This document shows positions 11,512-22,068 of a stretch of 64,000 nt of DNA, one piece after another. Location of the stretch: assembly GCF_001659785.1 (NCBI RefSeq), contig NZ_CP015961.1, forward strand, positions 744,001-808,000. Reading direction: 5' to 3'. How positions within the stretch are numbered: the stretch's first letter is position 1; each line of letters starts with the position of its first letter. The notes below the pieces were generated by a model, which was not told where the DNA came from, did not search any database, and saw nothing but the letters and a program-made list of their open reading frames with translations. The position numbers and the translations under genes are program-made. The DNA is from Dietzia timorensis. Lineage in GTDB: Bacteria > Actinomycetota > Actinomycetes > Mycobacteriales > Mycobacteriaceae.

Positions 11512-12096
11512 ATGGCGGATAACGAAGTGGCAGAGGCCCAGCAGCGGTTCAGCGGCCGCGAACTACGCGATGCCCTCGGGCAGTTCTGTACGGGAATCAC
11601 GGTGATCACCGCGGTGCATGATGACGTGCCCGTCGGGTTTGCGTGCCAGAGCTTCTGCGCGCTGTCCATCGACCCGCCGCTCGTGCTCTTCTGCGTGATG
11701 AAGACGTCGGGTTCCTGGAAGGGAATCCAGGCAGCGGGCCGGTTTGCGGTCAACATCCTCGCGGAGGAACAGCAGGATGTCTGCTCGACTTTCGGCCGGC
11801 GCGGAGAGGACAAATTCGCCCAGATCGACTGGACGCCGAGCCCGCTCGGCTCCCCGGTGATAGACGGTGTGATGGCGTGGTTCGACTGCCGAGTAGACCA
11901 GGTTCTCGACGGCGGTGACCACTGGGTCGTCTACGGGCGGGTGAGCGACCTCGGCCCCACGGACCGGACAGACCGGCCGCTGCTGTTCTACCGCGGCGCG
12001 TACCTGCGTCTCGAGGAGGATGTCGTCGATCCGACCCCCGAGATGGAGGAGCTGGAGAACTTCATCACCTCGTCGGGGCCGTACACCTGGCTCTAG
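11512..12096 (+). CDS. hsaB: flavin reductase HsaB
   Basis: A 194-residue flavin reductase of the HpaC/split-barrel family. The segments GQFCTGITVITAV, FACQSFCALSIDPPLVLFCV and FAVNILAEEQQDVCSTF are characteristic. HsaB supplies reduced FMN to HsaA from NADH. The ATG at 11512 follows a strong AAGGAGG site. It closes the hsaA-hsaC-hsaB operon. Because the three flavin monooxygenase-type proteins at 16461-20514 have no reductase beside them, HsaB is a possible shared donor, but nothing in the sequence proves it. Confidence 0.9.
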   Translation: MADNEVAEAQQRFSGRELRDALGQFCTGITVITAVHDDVPVGFACQSFCALSIDPPLVLFCVMKTSGSWKGIQAAGRFAVNILAEEQQDVCSTFGRRGEDKFAQIDWTPSPLGSPVIDGVMAWFDCRVDQVLDGGDHWVVYGRVSDLGPTDRTDRPLLFYRGAYLRLEEDVVDPTPEMEELENFITSSGPYTWL

Positions 12097-13482: not shown

Positions 13483-14292
13483 TCAGAGCCCCTTCGGCTT
13501 GAAGACGAGCTCCATGATGCGGCCGACCCACTCGATGATGAGCGCGAGGACGGCGACGAGGATGGCGCCCGAGGTGAGGATCGAGAAGCGGTACAGCGTG
13601 ATTCCCGTGTTGATGAGCGTGCCGAGCCCGCCCGCGTCGATGAAGGTGGCAAAGGCACCCGCGCCGACGAGGAGGACGAGCGCCGTGCGCGCGCCGGTCA
13701 TGATGACCGGGACCGCGAGCGGCAGCTCGACACGGAAGAGGACCTGCGAGGAAGACATGCCCATCCCGCGCGCCGATTCCTTCAGCGACGGGTCGATGCT
13801 GCGTAGGCCCGTGATCGTATTCGACAGGACCGGCAGAAACGCGTAGATGACCAGCGCGAGGACGGCGACCGGGGTGCCGAACCCGAGCCAGATCGCGAGA
13901 AGCACGACGACGCCGATGACGGGCGCAGCCTGCCCGGCGTTGGCGATCCCCATGAAAATCGGTGACAAAAACGAGGTCGACCGGCGCGTGAGGAGCACGC
14001 CGATGGGCACGGCGAGCGCCATGACGATGAGCGCCGAGACCACCACGAGGACGACATGTTGCCACGTGAGGTGGAGGACATTGCTCCACGCGAGCTGCCG
14101 AGACTCGACATCATCCAGATCGGCGGTTATCCGCCAGATGGACCACGCCGCGAGGATGACGACGACGAGTCCCGGGATGCCGGAAAGTAGGCCGCGGTCC
14201 TCGGCGCTGATCCGTAGGCGCTTCTTTTTCGGGAGAGCCGCCAATTCGCCGGTGGCGGCGACGGAGTCCGTGTCGGGAGCCGGGCTGCTCAT
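13483..14292 (-). CDS. osmoprotectant ABC transporter permease (OpuCD/ProW-like, second permease)
   Basis: A 269-residue inner-membrane permease with about six hydrophobic segments and the EAA-type loop LKESARGMGMSSSQVLFRVELPLAVPVIMTG. An N-terminal cytoplasmic extension (residues 1-35) precedes the first helix. The start at 14292 overlaps the ATPase stop as ATGA, so translation is coupled. It pairs with the permease at 15467 and the ATPase to form the transmembrane core of the importer. Confidence 0.88.
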   Translation of the reverse strand: MSSPAPDTDSVAATGELAALPKKKRLRISAEDRGLLSGIPGLVVVILAAWSIWRITADLDDVESRQLAWSNVLHLTWQHVVLVVVSALIVMALAVPIGVLLTRRSTSFLSPIFMGIANAGQAAPVIGVVVLLAIWLGFGTPVAVLALVIYAFLPVLSNTITGLRSIDPSLKESARGMGMSSSQVLFRVELPLAVPVIMTGARTALVLLVGAGAFATFIDAGGLGTLINTGITLYRFSILTSGAILVAVLALIIEWVGRIMELVFKPKGL

Positions 14293-15470
14293 GATTGGCC
14301 CTCCTCCTCGGTGGACGCCGTCGCGTTGTCCTGGGACTGGCGCAGAAGGGCGGTCACCGAATCGAAGTAGACGTTCCCGATGAACTTGCCGCGCCTGGTT
14401 ACCGACACCGCAGCGTGGGAGGACTCGAGCATCTGGTCCATCGCATCGTTGAGGGTGGCGCGATGGTCGACGATCGGCGCATTCTCCGGGTCGATCGCGG
14501 GCACCGTGTCCCATTTGCGCAGGGTGCGCAAGAACAGGAATTCACGAGGGCGGTCGCGGTCGTCGAGGATCATCACCGACTCGTTCCCCTCGGCGCTTAC
14601 GCGCTCGATGACCTCGGAGACTTTGTCTCCGACGCGACAGATCGACGGCTGGTGGAGCTCGGCATCGCTGACGCGCATGAGCGTGAGCTGCTTGAGCTTC
14701 GAGCCCGCGCCGACGAAGTCCGCGACGTAGTCGTTCGCGGGCGCGCCGAGGATGACCTCGGGGGTGTCGTACTGGGCGATCTCGGCGCCCTCGGCGAGGA
14801 CGAGGATGCGGTCCCCGAGTTTGACGGCCTCGTCGATGTCGTGGGTGACGATGACGATGGTTTTGCGCAGCTCCGATTGGATTGACATGAGTTCGTCCTG
14901 GAGTCGGGTACGCGTGATCGGGTCGACCGCGCCGAACGGCTCGTCCATGAGGATGACCGGCGGATCGGCGGCGAGTCCGCGCGCGACGCCGACGCGCTGC
15001 TGCTGTCCGCCGGACAGTTCCCGGGGAAAGCGGTCTCGGTAGACCGACGGGTCGAGACCGACCATGTCGAGCAGCTCATCGGTGCGGTCGGCGATCTTCT
15101 TCTTCGACCAGCCGAGTAGTCCGGGCACAATTCCGATGTTCTGCTTGACGGTCATATGCGGCAGCAGCCCGCCGCCCTGGATCACATACCCGATCTGACG
15201 GCGGAGCTCGGTCGGGTTGCTGCGGGTGATGTCCTCCCCGCCGATCGTGATGGACCCGGAGGTCGGTTCGATCAGACGGTTGATCATCTTCAGCGAGGTT
15301 GTCTTGCCACAGCCGGAGGGGCCGACGAACATCACCATCTCGCCCGCGGGAATCGTCAGAGAAAGCTCCTGCACGGCGGGCCTCGCCTGCCCCGGATAGC
15401 GCTTTTCGATGCTGCGCAGCTGGATATCGACGCCGGTGGTCGAGCCTGCTGCCTCTTGACTGTTGCTCAT
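14289..15470 (-). CDS. osmoprotectant ABC transporter ATPase with CBS domains (OpuCA/ProV-like)
   Basis: A 393-residue ATPase. Walker A is GPSGCGKTT, the signature is LSGGQQQRVGVARGL, Walker B is VILMDEPFGAVDP and the switch histidine is in VTHDIDEA. The C-terminal third (after about residue 260) contains two CBS-like repeats (VSEVIERVSAEGNESVMILDD and TLNDAMDQMLESSHAAVSV), which in OpuA-type systems sense ionic strength. The start at 15470 overlaps the stop of the preceding permease as ATGA. It powers the uptake of a quaternary-amine osmoprotectant. Confidence 0.9.
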   Translation of the reverse strand: MSNSQEAAGSTTGVDIQLRSIEKRYPGQARPAVQELSLTIPAGEMVMFVGPSGCGKTTSLKMINRLIEPTSGSITIGGEDITRSNPTELRRQIGYVIQGGGLLPHMTVKQNIGIVPGLLGWSKKKIADRTDELLDMVGLDPSVYRDRFPRELSGGQQQRVGVARGLAADPPVILMDEPFGAVDPITRTRLQDELMSIQSELRKTIVIVTHDIDEAVKLGDRILVLAEGAEIAQYDTPEVILGAPANDYVADFVGAGSKLKQLTLMRVSDAELHQPSICRVGDKVSEVIERVSAEGNESVMILDDRDRPREFLFLRTLRKWDTVPAIDPENAPIVDHRATLNDAMDQMLESSHAAVSVTRRGKFIGNVYFDSVTALLRQSQDNATASTEEEGQS

Positions 15471-16108
15471 GCGCGGAGTCCCTTCGAGGTGGTCAAGCGG
15501 GAAACGAGAACCAGCAGCGCGTCTACGATGAGTGCGACGACAACGACGCCGATGGTGCCCACAAGGGCGAAGTTGAGTGCGTTGAGGCCGCCGATCTGCG
15601 ACAGACCCGTGTAGATGTACGAGCCGAGGCCCGGGCCGAGAACGTACGCCGCGATAGCGGCGACGCCCATCGACATCTGCGTGGAAATGCGTACGCCGGT
15701 CATGATGACCGGCCACGCGATGCGCAGCCGCACGCGGAAGAAGACCGCTGCGGGGCTCATCCCCATTCCGCGAGCGGATTCGATGAGGGATTTGTCCACG
15801 CTCTGGAGGCCGACGACCGCATTTCGCAGGATTGGCAGGACCGCGTAAAAGATCACCACGATGATCGCGGGAAGCGTGCCGATGCCGACCAGCGGGATGA
15901 GCATGCCGAGCAATGCGAACGAGGGGATGGTGAGCCCGACAGCCGAGATCCCGTTGGCGACCGGTGCCAGTCGCTGATAGCTGGTGACGAGGACCGCGAT
16001 GGCCAGGGCGATGATGGTCGCGATGAGGACGGCCTGGATGACGAGGCTCGCGTGCTGGTAGGCGCGGAATGCGATGTCTGCCCACCGCGAGCCGATGAAG
16101 TCGATCAT
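15467..16108 (-). CDS. osmoprotectant ABC transporter permease (OpuCB-like, first permease)
   Basis: A 213-residue permease with five to six hydrophobic segments and the EAA loop SLIESARGMGMSPAAVFFRVRLRIAWPVIMTG. It is the first gene of the four-gene OpuC-type operon. Two ATGs adjoin (16111 and 16108); the second is better spaced from the GGGAGG ribosome site. The promoter should lie in the 16109-16460 gap. The operon is inserted between steroid genes and shows no KstR-type site, so it is probably controlled by osmotic or unrelated signals. Confidence 0.87.
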   Translation of the reverse strand: MIDFIGSRWADIAFRAYQHASLVIQAVLIATIIALAIAVLVTSYQRLAPVANGISAVGLTIPSFALLGMLIPLVGIGTLPAIIVVIFYAVLPILRNAVVGLQSVDKSLIESARGMGMSPAAVFFRVRLRIAWPVIMTGVRISTQMSMGVAAIAAYVLGPGLGSYIYTGLSQIGGLNALNFALVGTIGVVVVALIVDALLVLVSRLTTSKGLRA

Positions 16109-16460
16109 CATCGCCTCCCGGGCATCGGGCCGGAGGTGGCCGAGGCGCGCGCCACTGGCCGAATGTGGATATCCATAACCTACGAGCATAGGTGCACTGT
16201 TCGATAAAAATGGACCAATAAAACAATGAGATCCAAATGAGTCCGTCCGAAAAGTCCACGACGGCAGAAAGAATCGCGACGGAGCTGGGAGAACCACTGT
16301 CCTTTGCGTGCCGCCGATTTTCGAATGTATTCGCGTGCGGGGACACGATATCGGTCGGGTTCGCGTCCTGTAGCAGCCCGAAGGCGGGGCGTGCAACGGT
16401 TTCTCCGCCGCCGATTTCAATGATGGGCACGGCCGGTGGTGCTTCCTAGAGTCCCGTGGC
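16109..16460. other. 350-base intergenic region, divergent promoters
   Basis: This gap separates the OpuC-type operon (minus) from the flavin monooxygenase operon (plus). It is noticeably more AT-rich in its left third (about 16170-16250) than the surrounding genes, as expected for promoters. I see no KstR or KstR2 box, no strong hairpin and no convincing gene. A short open frame at 16237-16449 lacks any recognisable domain. Confidence 0.5.
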
Positions 16461-17792
16461 ATGACACAACACAGCAGCACACAAGGTCCATCGGAAACGC
16501 CCGCAAATAACGGAACGAGGGCGCCGCGGCCCATCGCCGTCGTGGGCGCGGGAATCGTCGGCGCGAGTGCCGCGCTCGCCCTGAAGCGAGCGGGCTTCGA
16601 CGTCACTCTGTACAGCGAGCGAACGCGCGAGGAGCTCCGTGACGAGGTGCCGGCCACGGGTACGGCGATCCTCTTCGGCGACTCCCGCGAACACGATGCC
16701 CGAATCGAGGGAGACCGATACGGCGCAGACGCGGCATTCGCGACCAGCGCCGTCACCGTGAACGGTGGGCCGACCTTCGATGCCCCGTACGACTACGAGG
16801 CGCAGTCGGTCGACGTTCGGTTGCGCGCCGACGATCGCATCGCGCTGTTCCTCGATGAGGGCGGCAGGTTCGCCCACCGCCGCGTGGATGACGCGGAGCT
16901 CGACTCGATTGCCGGCGAGCACGACGTCACGCTCGTCGCGACCGGCAAGGGCGGGCTGGCCGAGCGGTTCCCCGTCGACTCGGAGCGCAGCCCCTACACC
17001 GAACCGCAGCGTTACCTGCTCACGGTGACCGTCCGCACCGCCGACGGGAGCGATGTGCGTTTCCCAGGGCGCACCGAGAACGATCGCAGCGCGCTGCTAT
17101 CGATCGACCCCGAGGACGGCGAGGTGTTCGTCGGTCCATACCTGCACAAGGATGCGGGCCCGTCGTGGGTCCTCCTCGGGTTCGCGCGATTCGGGTCCGA
17201 GACCGAGAAGGCCTACCGCGGGGCTCACGACGCGGCATCCGCGCTCGACATCTTCCGCGCGCAGCACCACCGGCTCTTCCCCGACGTAGCGCCGCAGATC
17301 GATGCACTCGACGTGATCGATTCCGACGAGCACTCGTGGCTCAAGGGCGCAGTGACCCCGACTGTGCGGAAACCCGTCGCACGCACCGACTCCGGCGGCC
17401 TCCTCGTAGCCATCGGCGACACCGCGATCGCCGTCGACCCGATCGCCGGACAGGGCGCGCAACTCGGCGCGATCCAGGTTGCCGCGCTGGCCGACGCCCT
17501 ACGCGAGGAGACGGGCGAATGGGACGAAGAGCTGTTCACGCGGCTGTTCGACGCCCACTGGGAGGGCCACGGCAAGCCCTCGGTCGAGGCGACCTCGCTC
17601 TTCCTGGGAGACCCGAAGTACGCGGAGGTCGTGGGGTCGTTCTTCGGTCGCGCCGCCGAGAACCCCGCTGCGGCGACTGCGCTGTTCGACCTGCTCAGCG
17701 TGCCAGGGCCGGTGCTCGGGCTGCGCGGCGAGGAAGACGTCGACAGGTTCGTCCGCACCTTCGAAGAGCGCGGGGCAACGGTGTCCGCATGA
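16461..17792 (+). CDS. StyA-like FAD monooxygenase (styrene/indole monooxygenase family)
   Basis: A 443-residue two-component flavin monooxygenase. The FAD motif is IAVVGAGIVGASAALALKRAG at residues about 25-45. It shares characteristic StyA segments: LVATGKGGLAERF, SERSPYTEPQRYLL, and GDTAIAVDPIAGQGAQLGA near the C terminus. StyA-family enzymes use reduced FAD from a separate reductase to epoxidise alkenes or indole and to oxidise sulfides. No reductase gene is adjacent. It is the first gene of an operon with NtaA/DszA-like and DszC-like proteins, coupled through ATGA overlaps. The substrate is unknown. Confidence 0.8.
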   Translation: MTQHSSTQGPSETPANNGTRAPRPIAVVGAGIVGASAALALKRAGFDVTLYSERTREELRDEVPATGTAILFGDSREHDARIEGDRYGADAAFATSAVTVNGGPTFDAPYDYEAQSVDVRLRADDRIALFLDEGGRFAHRRVDDAELDSIAGEHDVTLVATGKGGLAERFPVDSERSPYTEPQRYLLTVTVRTADGSDVRFPGRTENDRSALLSIDPEDGEVFVGPYLHKDAGPSWVLLGFARFGSETEKAYRGAHDAASALDIFRAQHHRLFPDVAPQIDALDVIDSDEHSWLKGAVTPTVRKPVARTDSGGLLVAIGDTAIAVDPIAGQGAQLGAIQVAALADALREETGEWDEELFTRLFDAHWEGHGKPSVEATSLFLGDPKYAEVVGSFFGRAAENPAAATALFDLLSVPGPVLGLRGEEDVDRFVRTFEERGATVSA

Positions 17793-19270
17793 GTGCACGG
17801 ATCCGGTTCAACGCATTCGACATGAACTGCGTCGTACACCAATCGCCCGGACTCTGGAGGCACCCGGACGACCACTCGGCACGGTACACGGACCTCGACT
17901 ACTGGACCGAGCTTGCCAAGCTGTTGGAGAAGGGATTGTTCGACGGGATTTTCCTCGCCGATGTCCTCGGGGTCTACGACCTCTACGGAAGTAGTGCGGC
18001 AGCGGCGCTGAGAACCGGGGCGCAAACCCCCGTGGGCGACCCGGTCCCGTTGGTATCGGCGATGGCGACGGTGACAGAGCATCTGGGCTTCGGACTGACC
18101 ACCGGCACCGGTTTCGAGCATCCGTTCCCATTTGCCCGCAGAATATCCACCCTCGACCACCTCACCCGAGGACGCGTCGGTTGGAACGTCGTTACCGGAT
18201 ATCTACCGTCGGCCGCTGAAAACCTCGGACAGTCGGACGCCTTCGACCACGACCGGCGTTACGACAACGCCGAAGAATATCTCAACGTTCTATACAAGCT
18301 GTGGGAAGGGTCGTGGGAGGACGAGGCCGTGGTCGCCGATCGGGAATCGGGTATCTACGTCAATCCGGACAAGGTGCATCCCATCGAGCACCAAGGCGCC
18401 CAGTTCACGGTTCCCGGAATACACGTGAGCGCGCCCTCTCCGCAGCGCACCCCCGTCATCTACCAGGCAGGCGCCTCACCCAGGGGAACGGAATTTGCAG
18501 CGACCCACGCAGAGGCCGTCTTCGTCGCGGCGCCGACCAAGGAGAAACTCGCGGCCTCCGTCGCTCGGCTCCGCGCCTCACTTGAGAGCGCAGGGCGTGA
18601 ACGCGACGACGTTCTCGTATACGCGCTTCTCACGATCATCACGGACGGCACCGACAAAGCAGCTCAAGCGAAGGCCGCGGACTTCCGCGAATACGTGAGT
18701 AGCGAAGGGGCGCTTGCCCTCATGTCCGGCTGGATGGGCACCGATTTCTCCGGCTACGAGCTGGACGAGCCGATAGGTCACATCGAGTCCAACGCGGTGC
18801 AATCGGCCGCCGAGGCCTTCCGTCGGGCTGCCGGAGACGACCGAGAATGGACCGTCCGAGACCTCGCCGAATGGGGCGGAATCGGCGGCCTCGGCCCCGT
18901 CCTCGTCGGGTCGGGCGAATCCATCGCCGACCAGCTCGAAAGTTGGGTCGACGAGACAGGGGTGGACGGGTTCAACCTCGCGTACGCCGTCACCCCCGGC
19001 ACGTTCGCCGATGTCATCACGCACGTCGTTCCCGTCCTCCAGCGGCGCGGACGATATCCCACCGCGTACGAATACGGAACGTTGCGGCACAAGCTTTTTG
19101 GTGGGGGCGACAGGGTGTCGTCCACCCACCCGGCCGATCAACACCACCGCCGAATACACACCGGCACCCATTCACGCTCAGATGACGCCGCACGTCCCAG
19201 TTCCCACGCCGACTCGGGCGCGGGCTACCTCGTCTCCACGGGGTCCAACAGAAAAGGAAGCCTTCCATGA
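17789..19270 (+). CDS. NtaA/SnaA/DszA-family FMN-dependent monooxygenase
   Basis: A 493-residue bacterial luciferase-like protein of the NtaA/SnaA/DszA group. It contains NAFDMNCVVHQSPGLWRHPDD, DGIFLADVLGVYD, TGTGFEHPFPFARRISTLDHLTRGRVGWNVVTG and IYQAGASPRGTEFAATHAEAVFVA. These enzymes use FMNH2 to cleave C-N or C-S bonds, as with nitrilotriacetate or dibenzothiophene sulfone. The last 45 residues after the LFGGGDR segment are polar and look like a non-conserved tail. It overlaps the StyA-like gene before it and the DszC-like gene after it by four bases each. Confidence 0.85.
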   Translation: MSARIRFNAFDMNCVVHQSPGLWRHPDDHSARYTDLDYWTELAKLLEKGLFDGIFLADVLGVYDLYGSSAAAALRTGAQTPVGDPVPLVSAMATVTEHLGFGLTTGTGFEHPFPFARRISTLDHLTRGRVGWNVVTGYLPSAAENLGQSDAFDHDRRYDNAEEYLNVLYKLWEGSWEDEAVVADRESGIYVNPDKVHPIEHQGAQFTVPGIHVSAPSPQRTPVIYQAGASPRGTEFAATHAEAVFVAAPTKEKLAASVARLRASLESAGRERDDVLVYALLTIITDGTDKAAQAKAADFREYVSSEGALALMSGWMGTDFSGYELDEPIGHIESNAVQSAAEAFRRAAGDDREWTVRDLAEWGGIGGLGPVLVGSGESIADQLESWVDETGVDGFNLAYAVTPGTFADVITHVVPVLQRRGRYPTAYEYGTLRHKLFGGGDRVSSTHPADQHHRRIHTGTHSRSDDAARPSSHADSGAGYLVSTGSNRKGSLP

Positions 19271-20514
19271 CCACTTCGGAACTCGACACACCGACCACCG
19301 ACACCGCGCCTTCGACACACGTAGCCGCGGGTCTCTCCGAGAGGTTCCAGCCGATCTTCGCGCACATCGCGAAAGGGGCGACGAGCCGTGACCGTGACCG
19401 GGAGCTCGCCCACGCCGAGATCGCCGCGCTCAAGGCCGAGAAGTTCGGCGCCGTCCGATTGCCCCAGGCCCATGGTGGGGCGGGCGCCTCGGTGCGCCAA
19501 CTCTTCGACCTGCTCATCGACCTGTCGGCCGCGGGCTCCAACGTCACCCAGGCGCTGCGTGCCCACTTCTTCGTTGCCGAGGGCTACATCCTTTCCGGCG
19601 ACACTCGCGGGCTCGAGCGCGTCGCCGCGGGGGAGATCATCGGCAACGCTATCTCCGAGAAGGGGGCCGGCTCGGTCAACCGCTACGAAACCACACTCCG
19701 CCGGGACGGCGATCGCTTCCTGCTCAACGGCACGAAGTATTACAGCACCGGCAGCCTGTACGCCGACGCGATCGCTGTCGCCGCAGACCTTGACGGCGAG
19801 CGCGTCTATGCGACCGTGGACACTGACGCGCCGGGGCTCACCCAATTCGACGATTGGGATGGTTTCGGCCAGAGGCTCACGGGTTCGGGAACCTCGGTCT
19901 ACGAGAATGTGTCCGTTGCCGCTGAAGACGTGACGCCGGGCGGTTACGGGACCGAAGGTCGCAACGCGAGCTCGGCCTACCTGCAGCTGTTTCATCTCGC
20001 CGCGCTCGCCGGGATCCTCAGACGTGCTGCCGACGACGTGCGCGGTTGGGTGGCGGGACGAACGCGGACCTATAGCCATGCGCCCGCCGATCTGCCTCGC
20101 GAGGACCCGCTCGTGCAGGCGGTTCTCGGGCGCGCCTACTCGGCGGCATTCGCCGCCCGCGCGACCGTGCTTTCTGTGGCCGATGCGCTCGACGCGGTGC
20201 TCGAAACACCGGAGACCGCGGCGGATCCCGAGCTGCTCGACAAGGCGGAACTTACTGCGGCGGAAGCGCAGGTCGCGTTGATTCCACTCGTCTTGGGTGC
20301 CATCACCGACCTTTTCGACGTCGGCGGAGCCTCTATTTCTTCGGAATCGCTCGGCCTCGACCGGCACTGGCGCAACGCGCGCACGCTCGCGGTTCATAAT
20401 CCCGTTGTCTACAAGCAGCAGGCGGTGGGAAGGTTCGAGCTCACAGGTGACGGGCTTCCGTACGAATGGAACGCGGGCGTACGCGGGAAGGCGGCGGAAG
20501 CGTACAGAAATTGA
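19267..20514 (+). CDS. acyl-CoA-dehydrogenase-fold flavin monooxygenase (DszC/SfnC-like)
   Basis: A 415-residue protein with the acyl-CoA dehydrogenase fold, but with features of the DszC/SfnC monooxygenase branch: FGAVRLPQAHGGAGASVRQLFDLLIDLS, NALSEKGAG-like NAISEKGAGSVNR, LNGTKYYSTGSLYAD and a C-terminal ESLGLDRHWRNARTLAVHNPVVYK. That last motif (RHWRNARTL with N-P-V) is typical of this branch rather than of true dehydrogenases. DszC oxidises sulfur atoms with reduced flavin. It completes a coupled monooxygenase trio, which suggests sequential oxidations on one substrate, perhaps an organosulfur or heteroaromatic compound. Confidence 0.83.
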   Translation: MTTSELDTPTTDTAPSTHVAAGLSERFQPIFAHIAKGATSRDRDRELAHAEIAALKAEKFGAVRLPQAHGGAGASVRQLFDLLIDLSAAGSNVTQALRAHFFVAEGYILSGDTRGLERVAAGEIIGNAISEKGAGSVNRYETTLRRDGDRFLLNGTKYYSTGSLYADAIAVAADLDGERVYATVDTDAPGLTQFDDWDGFGQRLTGSGTSVYENVSVAAEDVTPGGYGTEGRNASSAYLQLFHLAALAGILRRAADDVRGWVAGRTRTYSHAPADLPREDPLVQAVLGRAYSAAFAARATVLSVADALDAVLETPETAADPELLDKAELTAAEAQVALIPLVLGAITDLFDVGGASISSESLGLDRHWRNARTLAVHNPVVYKQQAVGRFELTGDGLPYEWNAGVRGKAAEAYRN

Positions 20515-20601
20515 ACACTCAGGACCCTGGAATGCGGTGCAACGATGGGAACACGTCACCGACTACGTGATGTGAATCACTATCGAGAAGAGGTACCCAC
20601 G

Positions 20602-22068
20602 TTGAGTAGCGCACTTTCGGACCAGGCCGTCACAGAACACAGCACACTATTCATCGGCGGTCAGTGGCGCGAGCCGAACGGCCGGGAGAAAATCACTGTC
20701 GTTTCGCCGAACTCGGGCGAGGAGATCGGCTCGGTGCCGCTCGCGAACCGCGCCGACATCGACGCGGCGGTCGCCACCGCGCGCCAGGCTTTCGACGATC
20801 CGAGCGTCTGGTCTGGACTCGAACCCGCCGAGCGCGCCGCGCATCTGCGCCGCTTCGCCGACGAGCTCGAGGCGCGCGGCGAGAAGATCGCCTCGCTGGT
20901 TTCCTCCCAGAACGGCATGCCCGTCACCATCGCCGGCCAGATGGAGGCCGTGTACCCGGCCACGCTGCTGCGGTACTACTCCGACCTCATCGAAAAGCAG
21001 ACCCCCGATCTGCGCGAGGGCATGATGGGCGGCGTGGTCGAGGTTCAGCGACAGCCCATCGGTGTCGTCGGCGCCATCGTGCCGTGGAACTACCCGCAGT
21101 CTCTCGCCGCGTTCAAGTACGCGCCTGCCCTGGCCGCAGGCTGCACGATGGTGATCAAGCCGTCCCCGGAGACCGTGCTCGACTCCGTTGTCCTCGCCGA
21201 GGCCGCCGAGGCCGCCGGCCTTCCGGCGGGCGTGGTCAACATCGTGCCCGGCGGGCGTGACGAGGGCGCGTACCTCGTCGAGCACGCCGATATCGACAAG
21301 GTCGCGTTCACCGGTTCCACTGCGGCGGGCAAGAAGATCGCCGAGGTGTGTGGCCGTCTCCTTCGCCCGGTCACCCTCGAGCTCGGCGGCAAGTCCGCAT
21401 CGATCGTGCTCGACGATGCCGAGCTCGACCTCGAGACGATCGGCAACGACCTGTTCGTCTCGACGTTGGTGAACAACGGCCAGACCTGCTTCCTCGGCAC
21501 CCGCGTTCTCGCGCCGAAGTCCCGCTACGGCGAGGTCGTCGACGCCCTCACCGCGTTCGCCGGGTCCATGGCCGTCGGCGATTCGCTCGACCCCGCCACA
21601 CAGATCGGCCCGATGGCCACACAAACCCACCTCGGTCGCGTCGAGGGCTACATCGAGAAGGGACGGTCGGAGGGCGGCCGCATCACGACCGGCGGCGGGC
21701 GGCCCGAAGGTCGCGACGGTGGCTGGTTCGTCTCTCCGACCGTGTTCGCCGACGTCAACAATTCCGACACCATTGCGCGCGAGGAGATCTTCGGCCCCGT
21801 GCTCTCGGTGATCCAGTACGACGACGACGCCGACGCCGTACGCATCGCCAACGAGTCCGAGTACGGGCTCGGCGGGACGGTATGGAGCTCGGACCCCGAG
21901 CGCGCTCGCAGCGTCGCCTCTCGTGTCAACACGGGAACGATCGGCATCAACCGCTACATCCCGGACCCGGTGGCACCGTTCGGCGGCGTCAAGCACAGCG
22001 GCATGGGTCGCGAGCTCGGACCCGAGGGGCTGGCCGCATACCAGAACCTCAAGTCCATCTACCGCTAA
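20602..22068 (+). CDS. NAD(P)-dependent aldehyde dehydrogenase
   Basis: A 488-residue aldehyde dehydrogenase. NAD-binding and catalytic segments are clear: GAIVPWNYPQSL, VAFTGSTAAGKKIAEVCG, LELGGKSASIVLDDAEL and the nucleophile cysteine in NNGQTCFLGTR, with EEIFGPVLSVI later on. A TTG start at 20602 behind GAAGAGG gives the family length; an in-frame ATG at 20545 would add 19 residues. It lies 87 bases after the DszC-like gene in the same direction and probably belongs to the same catabolic unit, oxidising an aldehyde product. It is convergent with the acyl-CoA dehydrogenase cluster, four bases away. Confidence 0.87.
   Translation: MSSALSDQAVTEHSTLFIGGQWREPNGREKITVVSPNSGEEIGSVPLANRADIDAAVATARQAFDDPSVWSGLEPAERAAHLRRFADELEARGEKIASLVSSQNGMPVTIAGQMEAVYPATLLRYYSDLIEKQTPDLREGMMGGVVEVQRQPIGVVGAIVPWNYPQSLAAFKYAPALAAGCTMVIKPSPETVLDSVVLAEAAEAAGLPAGVVNIVPGGRDEGAYLVEHADIDKVAFTGSTAAGKKIAEVCGRLLRPVTLELGGKSASIVLDDAELDLETIGNDLFVSTLVNNGQTCFLGTRVLAPKSRYGEVVDALTAFAGSMAVGDSLDPATQIGPMATQTHLGRVEGYIEKGRSEGGRITTGGGRPEGRDGGWFVSPTVFADVNNSDTIAREEIFGPVLSVIQYDDDADAVRIANESEYGLGGTVWSSDPERARSVASRVNTGTIGINRYIPDPVAPFGGVKHSGMGRELGPEGLAAYQNLKSIYR

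Follow-up and report, generated by a model that had tools for sequence, protein, structure and literature searches.

What substrate would call for three flavin-dependent monooxygenases of different folds, encoded in a row with an aldehyde dehydrogenase and with no flavin reductase of their own? The question is raised by an operon of Dietzia timorensis that lies in a 64,000-nucleotide stretch of contig NZ_CP015961.1 (positions 744,001 to 808,000), referred to below as the window, whose numbering is used for all its features.

Operon Organization

The operon comprises four genes on the plus strand. They encode a StyA/indole-monooxygenase-like group E FAD monooxygenase (gene A, 16461–17792; 443 aa), an NtaA/DmoA-family FMN monooxygenase (gene B, 17789–19270; 493 aa), an SfnB/MsuC/DszC-like group D flavin monooxygenase (gene C, 19267–20514; 415 aa) and an NAD(P)-dependent aldehyde dehydrogenase (gene D, 20545–22068; 507 aa from its ATG, with an alternative TTG start at 20603). 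All four open reading frames were confirmed. Genes A and B, and likewise B and C, are joined by ATGA stop/start overlaps on the plus strand (17789–17792 and 19267–19270, respectively), and 30 bp separate C from D. An earlier description of the locus from its letters alone, as three flavin-monooxygenase genes joined by two such overlaps and followed by an aldehyde dehydrogenase, is borne out by the reading frames and by the profile families.

Upstream, an intergenic region (16254–16460) separates gene A from a divergently transcribed OpuC-type ABC transporter operon (13483–16253, minus strand). This region presumably holds the promoter of gene A; a promoter scan found no sigma-70 consensus in it. 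Comparison of the upstream regions of this operon and of the second operon at 3.17 Mb described below yielded only chance-level motif matches. A search for McbR-like palindromes gave a single match, also at chance level and inside the transporter genes, and no known operator was found.

Conservation of the Monooxygenase Genes and Their Neighbours

The search for related loci returned matches with an alignment of 17 sequences as query and none with a single protein. Relatives of gene A are present in 122 of the 401 sampled genomes of the family, representing 17 of 31 genera. Eighty named loci contain such a relative: A, B and C lie on one strand in 31 of them, 17 have C–A and two have B–A, and A stands alone in the remaining 30. 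Conservation of the three as a group extends over Corynebacterium, Nocardia, Rhodococcus, Hoyosella and certain Proteobacteria, and their grouping is more than chance, since they recur together and co-directionally in dozens of genomes. The gene-order comparison called for by the sequence-only reading has thus come out in favour of conservation across genera, and the mixture of a StyA-like enzyme with a DszC/DszA-like pair is not a one-off but a widespread module.

The closest relatives belong to Corynebacterium, where the order is A-B-C-reductase-SfnG-SfnB, with A-B-C arranged as in the window; in phylogenetic trees each of the three window genes groups as sister to the Corynebacterium ones (support 100/100 for A, 97/99 for B and 100/100 for C). 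In Nocardia the order is C-B-A-SfnG-SfnB, frequently accompanied by a reductase, and Rhodococcus aetherivorans has SsuD-SfnB-C-B-A-SfnG. A looser association is seen in Tsukamurella (C-A, with B not adjoining), in Bradyrhizobium (C-A, with B on the opposite strand) and in the Gordonia and Williamsia loci, where A lies apart from B and C. Where relatives have these two genes in the reversed order C-B, a 4-base stop/start overlap still joins them in most cases.

Of the 31 named loci with all three genes, 23 also contain SfnG, and a further SfnB and a flavin reductase are usually present there too; the linked SfnG proteins exceed the curated cutoff of 383 bits (635.9 bits in locus L080 and 561.6 bits in Corynebacterium locus L141). 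Across the family, gene C is found in 115 of 122 genomes with A and in 12 of 279 without it, and SfnG in 119 of 122 and 94 of 279, respectively; these are raw counts that ignore kinship. Since 94 genomes have SfnG but lack A, the downstream part of the pathway can do without A.

These conserved sulfur-gene neighbours make the operon fit a sulfur-scavenging system of the sfn/msu/ssu kind and not the breakdown of styrene or indole. The suggestion of a single multi-step operon acting on an organosulfur substrate with an external reductase is favoured by the neighbouring SfnG, SfnB, SsuD and PF01613 reductase genes; the heteroaromatic, indole or styrene alternative, held equally likely from sequence alone, loses ground, as the annotated loci showed neither a styrene-oxide isomerase nor genes of the indole-type SDR/DLH or aminopolycarboxylate kind.

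In many Nocardia-type loci, a gene read from the other strand separates A from B (or C). It encodes a homologue of GAF-type free methionine-(R)-sulfoxide reductase (fRMsr), with YebR and fRMsr structures among its best PDB relatives. It is found in this place at L026:10396–10911 (+) and in loci L075–L082, L085, L087, L094–L096, L098, L099, L198, L201, L204, L205, L209 and L215, a further hint of sulfoxide chemistry. Homologues of A, B and/or C also occur on metagenome-assembled contigs labelled Campylobacteraceae/Helicobacteraceae (L147, L152, L155 and L188). The two of these placed in trees, L147 and L152, group with betaproteobacterial sequences for both A and C, and contigs so labelled may be misbinned or their genes transferred.

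Flavin Supply and a Second Operon

No flavin reductase is encoded in the A–D operon and, as the sequence-only reading had also stated, the sole PF01613 reductase of the window is HsaB (11578–12012; 272.5 bits against a cutoff of 230). The scan, which covered the PF01613 family, found four members in the genome, including HsaB. Another of these lies 2.4 Mb from the A–D operon, at approximately 3,170,715–3,174,911, where genes for SsuD, SfnG, an SfnB-like protein and a PF01613 reductase stand in a row, those for SfnG and the SfnB-like protein overlapping by 4 bases. The idea that a reductase is simply missing was dropped once this gene had been found. The SfnG of the second operon scores 550.7 bits (cutoff 383).

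SsuD, SfnG, the SfnB-like protein and the reductase are 50%, 73%, 50% and 48% identical, respectively, to proteins of Corynebacterium CNJ-954, whose genes lie around or directly after A-B-C. This correspondence is most simply read as the division of one Corynebacterium-type cluster into two operons in the D. timorensis genome. Judging from this arrangement, the reductase of the second operon probably serves the A, B and C proteins in trans. The 4S pathway, in which dszD is freestanding, offers a precedent for reduced flavin that comes from an unlinked gene (PMC11852219).

The StyA-Fold Monooxygenase

PF17885, the substrate-binding domain of StyA, is found in gene A above the Pfam cutoff, and the AlphaFold model of the protein (mean pLDDT 82) matches StyA or indole monooxygenase (IMO) structures in all of its top 15 PDB hits, VpIndA1 being matched at a TM score of 0.82 and 26% identity. 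The protein is thus predicted to adopt the group E flavoprotein monooxygenase fold, a PHBH-like fold with a StyA substrate domain. It is less than 30% identical to any characterized enzyme, and its score against the StyA equivalog profile NF045732 (135.8 bits, cutoff 550) places it outside StyA proper.

The fold of gene A resembles that of the E2-type group E monooxygenases (VpStyA1/VpIndA1 and AbIMO; TM about 0.82), whose characterized members are good sulfoxidases. VpStyA1 of Variovorax performs sulfoxidation much better than styrene epoxidation (PMC6017014), and a review finds no tie between E2-type genes and styrene clusters (PMC6165268). Gene A differs from these enzymes in being only about 22–26% identical to them and in having no IndB/StyB partner or indole genes adjoining. 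We propose that it is a thioether S-oxygenase. In locus L028 (genome G031) and in a match from genome G113, gene A is split into two frames, giving two adjacent matches, which suggests pseudogenes or sequencing errors.

The StyA/IMO fold could also mean that the operon serves aromatic catabolism of the indole or styrene type, with A as the epoxidase and D oxidizing an aryl acetaldehyde. Gene D does score 423.5 bits on the StyD profile, and the window adjoins steroid ring-degradation genes. Yet this score, like that of A, lies below its cutoff (850), the operon has no StyB reductase, the annotated neighbours include no styrene-oxide isomerase, no indole SDR/DLH partner is seen, the genes conserved alongside are those of sulfur metabolism, and sister species show the operon to be accessory at its site beside the steroid genes. 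Styrene or indole catabolism was rejected on the family cutoffs and the neighbours, and we regard this account as highly improbable.

The DmoA-Like Monooxygenase

Gene B belongs to the NtaA/DmoA family (TIGR03860, 548.3 bits against a cutoff of 279.7), which also takes in alkane and dehalogenating enzymes. Its best solved relative is DmoA (557 bits), ahead of LadA (454 bits) and DszA (248 bits). DmoA itself functions in the carbon metabolism of a methylotroph. Gene B shares 53% identity over 440 residues with the Hyphomicrobium enzyme (PDB 6ak1) and agrees with its binding residues, as listed in PMC9259527, at 16 of 18 compared positions, the exceptions being 137 (Gly in gene B) and 231 (Pro). 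It differs from DmoA further in being coupled to A and C. On these similarities we propose gene B as a C–S cleaving, that is, thioether-dealkylating, enzyme.

With LadA at about 52% identity, nearly the DmoA level, and HcbA1 third, one may ask whether gene B is instead an alkane or organohalide monooxygenase, in an operon for a carbon source of that kind whose aldehyde product is oxidized by D. The active-site comparison speaks against it: Ile18, His138 and Met229 of LadA are replaced by Gln, Tyr and Ala in gene B, exactly as in DmoA. The conserved neighbours are again sulfur genes, and we attach hardly any weight to this possibility.

The SfnB-Like Monooxygenase

Gene C is SfnB-like, scoring 257.7 bits on the SfnB profile TIGR04022, below the cutoff of 430.9 for SfnB itself, and it lies far outside DszC (NF043015, 94.6 bits against 850). 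Its nearest solved relative is the unassigned monooxygenase 8cda, followed by the S-oxygenases TdsC, MsuC and DszC. The initial assignment of the three enzymes to StyA, NtaA/DszA and DszC types has to be adjusted accordingly for two of them, B being DmoA-like and C SfnB/MsuC/TdsC-like. We propose that gene C oxidizes a sulfoxide to the sulfone or, alternatively, acts as a sulfinate oxygenase.

The distant similarity of C to DszC and TdsC leaves room for a dsz-like pathway acting on aromatic sulfur heterocycles such as dibenzothiophene and benzothiophene, in which A or C would make the sulfone and B would open it. Gordonia alkanivorans 135, which has no dsz genes, strongly induces sfnB and a pair of acyl-CoA dehydrogenase and NtaA/DmoA genes with consecutive accessions when dibenzothiophene is the sulfur source (PMC11852219). 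However, sulfur starvation in general can bring about such induction, and the two induced genes may form a paralogous pair. NtaA-type genes also respond to fluorinated sulfonates as the sulfur source (PMC7661421), which may likewise reflect general sulfur starvation. In addition, B is far nearer to DmoA than to DszA, no DszB-type desulfinase is found among the operon genes, the operon does not classify as a 4S (dszABC) system, and the genomes with the module possess SfnG and SsuD, which deal with small sulfones and sulfonates. A dsz-like function is thus unlikely.

We also considered the induced pair of G. alkanivorans (QGP87979/QGP87980; PMC11852219) as a C-B pair. In strain NBRC 16433 the high-scoring C and B lie apart, and it is a lower-scoring paralogous pair that adjoins, so the comparison serves as an analogy only. 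This adjoining C-like/B-like pair (G425:C16:26439–28990), present besides the separate high-scoring genes, indicates that the module type has been duplicated.

The Aldehyde Dehydrogenase

Gene D is a PF00171 member (506 bits) that falls below all equivalog cutoffs listed. It stands outside the conserved A-B-C module of the named loci and is the weakest member of the operon; we infer its place in the pathway, in which it may oxidize the aldehyde released by C–S cleavage. In Gordonia asplenii (L131/L176), a Fis-type regulator (HTH_8/AAA-lid) stands between an A homologue and a copy of D with 79% identity, which suggests a regulatory setting for the association of A with D.

Proposed Pathway and Relation to Known Systems

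We hypothesize, with a probability of roughly 0.7, that A-B-C is the sulfide-oxidizing half of an organosulfur-scavenging pathway that supplies thioether sulfur when sulfate is short. An organosulfur substrate is well supported by the gene context; the steps and their order below are a proposal. A thioether, dimethyl sulfide or a larger sulfide, would be the starting sulfur source. Gene A, using FADH2, would convert the sulfide to the sulfoxide, gene C would take the sulfoxide to the sulfone (or a sulfinate to the sulfonate), and gene B would cut the C–S bond with release of an aldehyde, which gene D would probably oxidize. SfnG, the SfnB-like protein and SsuD of the 3.17 Mb operon would then convert the sulfone or sulfonate to sulfite, and reduced flavin for all the monooxygenases would come from the PF01613 reductase encoded there.

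A BCCT carrier gene (L135:4576–6552, +) lies just upstream of the SsuD-SfnG-SfnB-reductase genes. Both halves of the split pathway therefore adjoin osmolyte transporters, the other being the OpuC-type ABC operon, and we speculate that D. timorensis could draw its sulfur from osmolytes of the sulfonium or sulfoxide type, for instance DMSP or DMSO.

The proposed pathway is similar to the Pseudomonas sfn/msu/ssu system (SfnG, SfnB, MsuC/D and SsuD) in having SfnG, SfnB and SsuD homologues and a flavin reductase in its second half, whether linked or separated, and in the implied multi-step flavin oxygenation to sulfite. An sfn-type cluster is indeed recognizable, with SfnG above its cutoff linked to the module in close relatives and with SfnG and the reductase present in the window genome. 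Unlike the Pseudomonas system, it adds StyA-fold and DmoA-like enzymes and is divided between two operons in D. timorensis. Among the seu genes of Corynebacterium glutamicum we know of no StyA-type member. The ssu/seu genes of this neighbouring genus, which act on sulfonates and sulfonate esters, are comparable as sulfur-regulated monooxygenase genes for organic sulfur (PMC2580772). The TetR-LLM-SfnG-SfnB-TerD region of the related genus Gordonia shares SfnG and SfnB and responds to the sulfur source (PMC9861168, PMC11852219); however, no A-B-C genes are described there, and in the Gordonia genomes that were searched the three genes are scattered.

Sulfur scavenging by flavin monooxygenases is thus already known, and what may be new is a stable module adding StyA-fold and DmoA-like enzymes to it. 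No published account tying a StyA-like clade to sulfur scavenging was found, which is weak evidence of absence, as most subscription papers lay outside the search. We tentatively suggest, at somewhat less than even odds, that the StyA-fold clade represented in Corynebacterium, Nocardia, Rhodococcus, Gordonia, Tsukamurella, Bradyrhizobium and further genera has nothing to do with styrene or indole, its members being thioether S-oxygenases devoted to sulfur scavenging, which form with a DmoA-like C–S cleaver and an SfnB-like oxygenase an undescribed sulfide-to-sulfite pathway. If so, a large uncharacterized group E branch annotated as styrene/indole monooxygenase would gain a physiological role, and the known organic-sulfur route would be extended back from sulfones and sulfonates to sulfides. 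Annotations pointing to aromatic catabolism would be corrected, and a matched enzyme set would become available for work on sulfoxidation and desulfurization.

History of the Site in Dietzia

Neither A nor C was found in the other sampled genomes of the genus, the operon occurring in this species only, and SfnG is present in two of 23 sampled Dietzia genomes. In five sister species, hsaB and the flanking acyl-CoA dehydrogenase genes lie about 3.2 kb apart, and both the OpuC-type transporter and the A–D genes are absent between them. The stretch is thus accessory, by gain in D. timorensis or loss elsewhere. At the same site, one sister species carries three genes of its own (L251:11374–14596), for which no counterparts were found in the window: they encode an unrelated 403-aa protein, a probable sulfotransferase and a probable protein of the inositol-phosphatase type.
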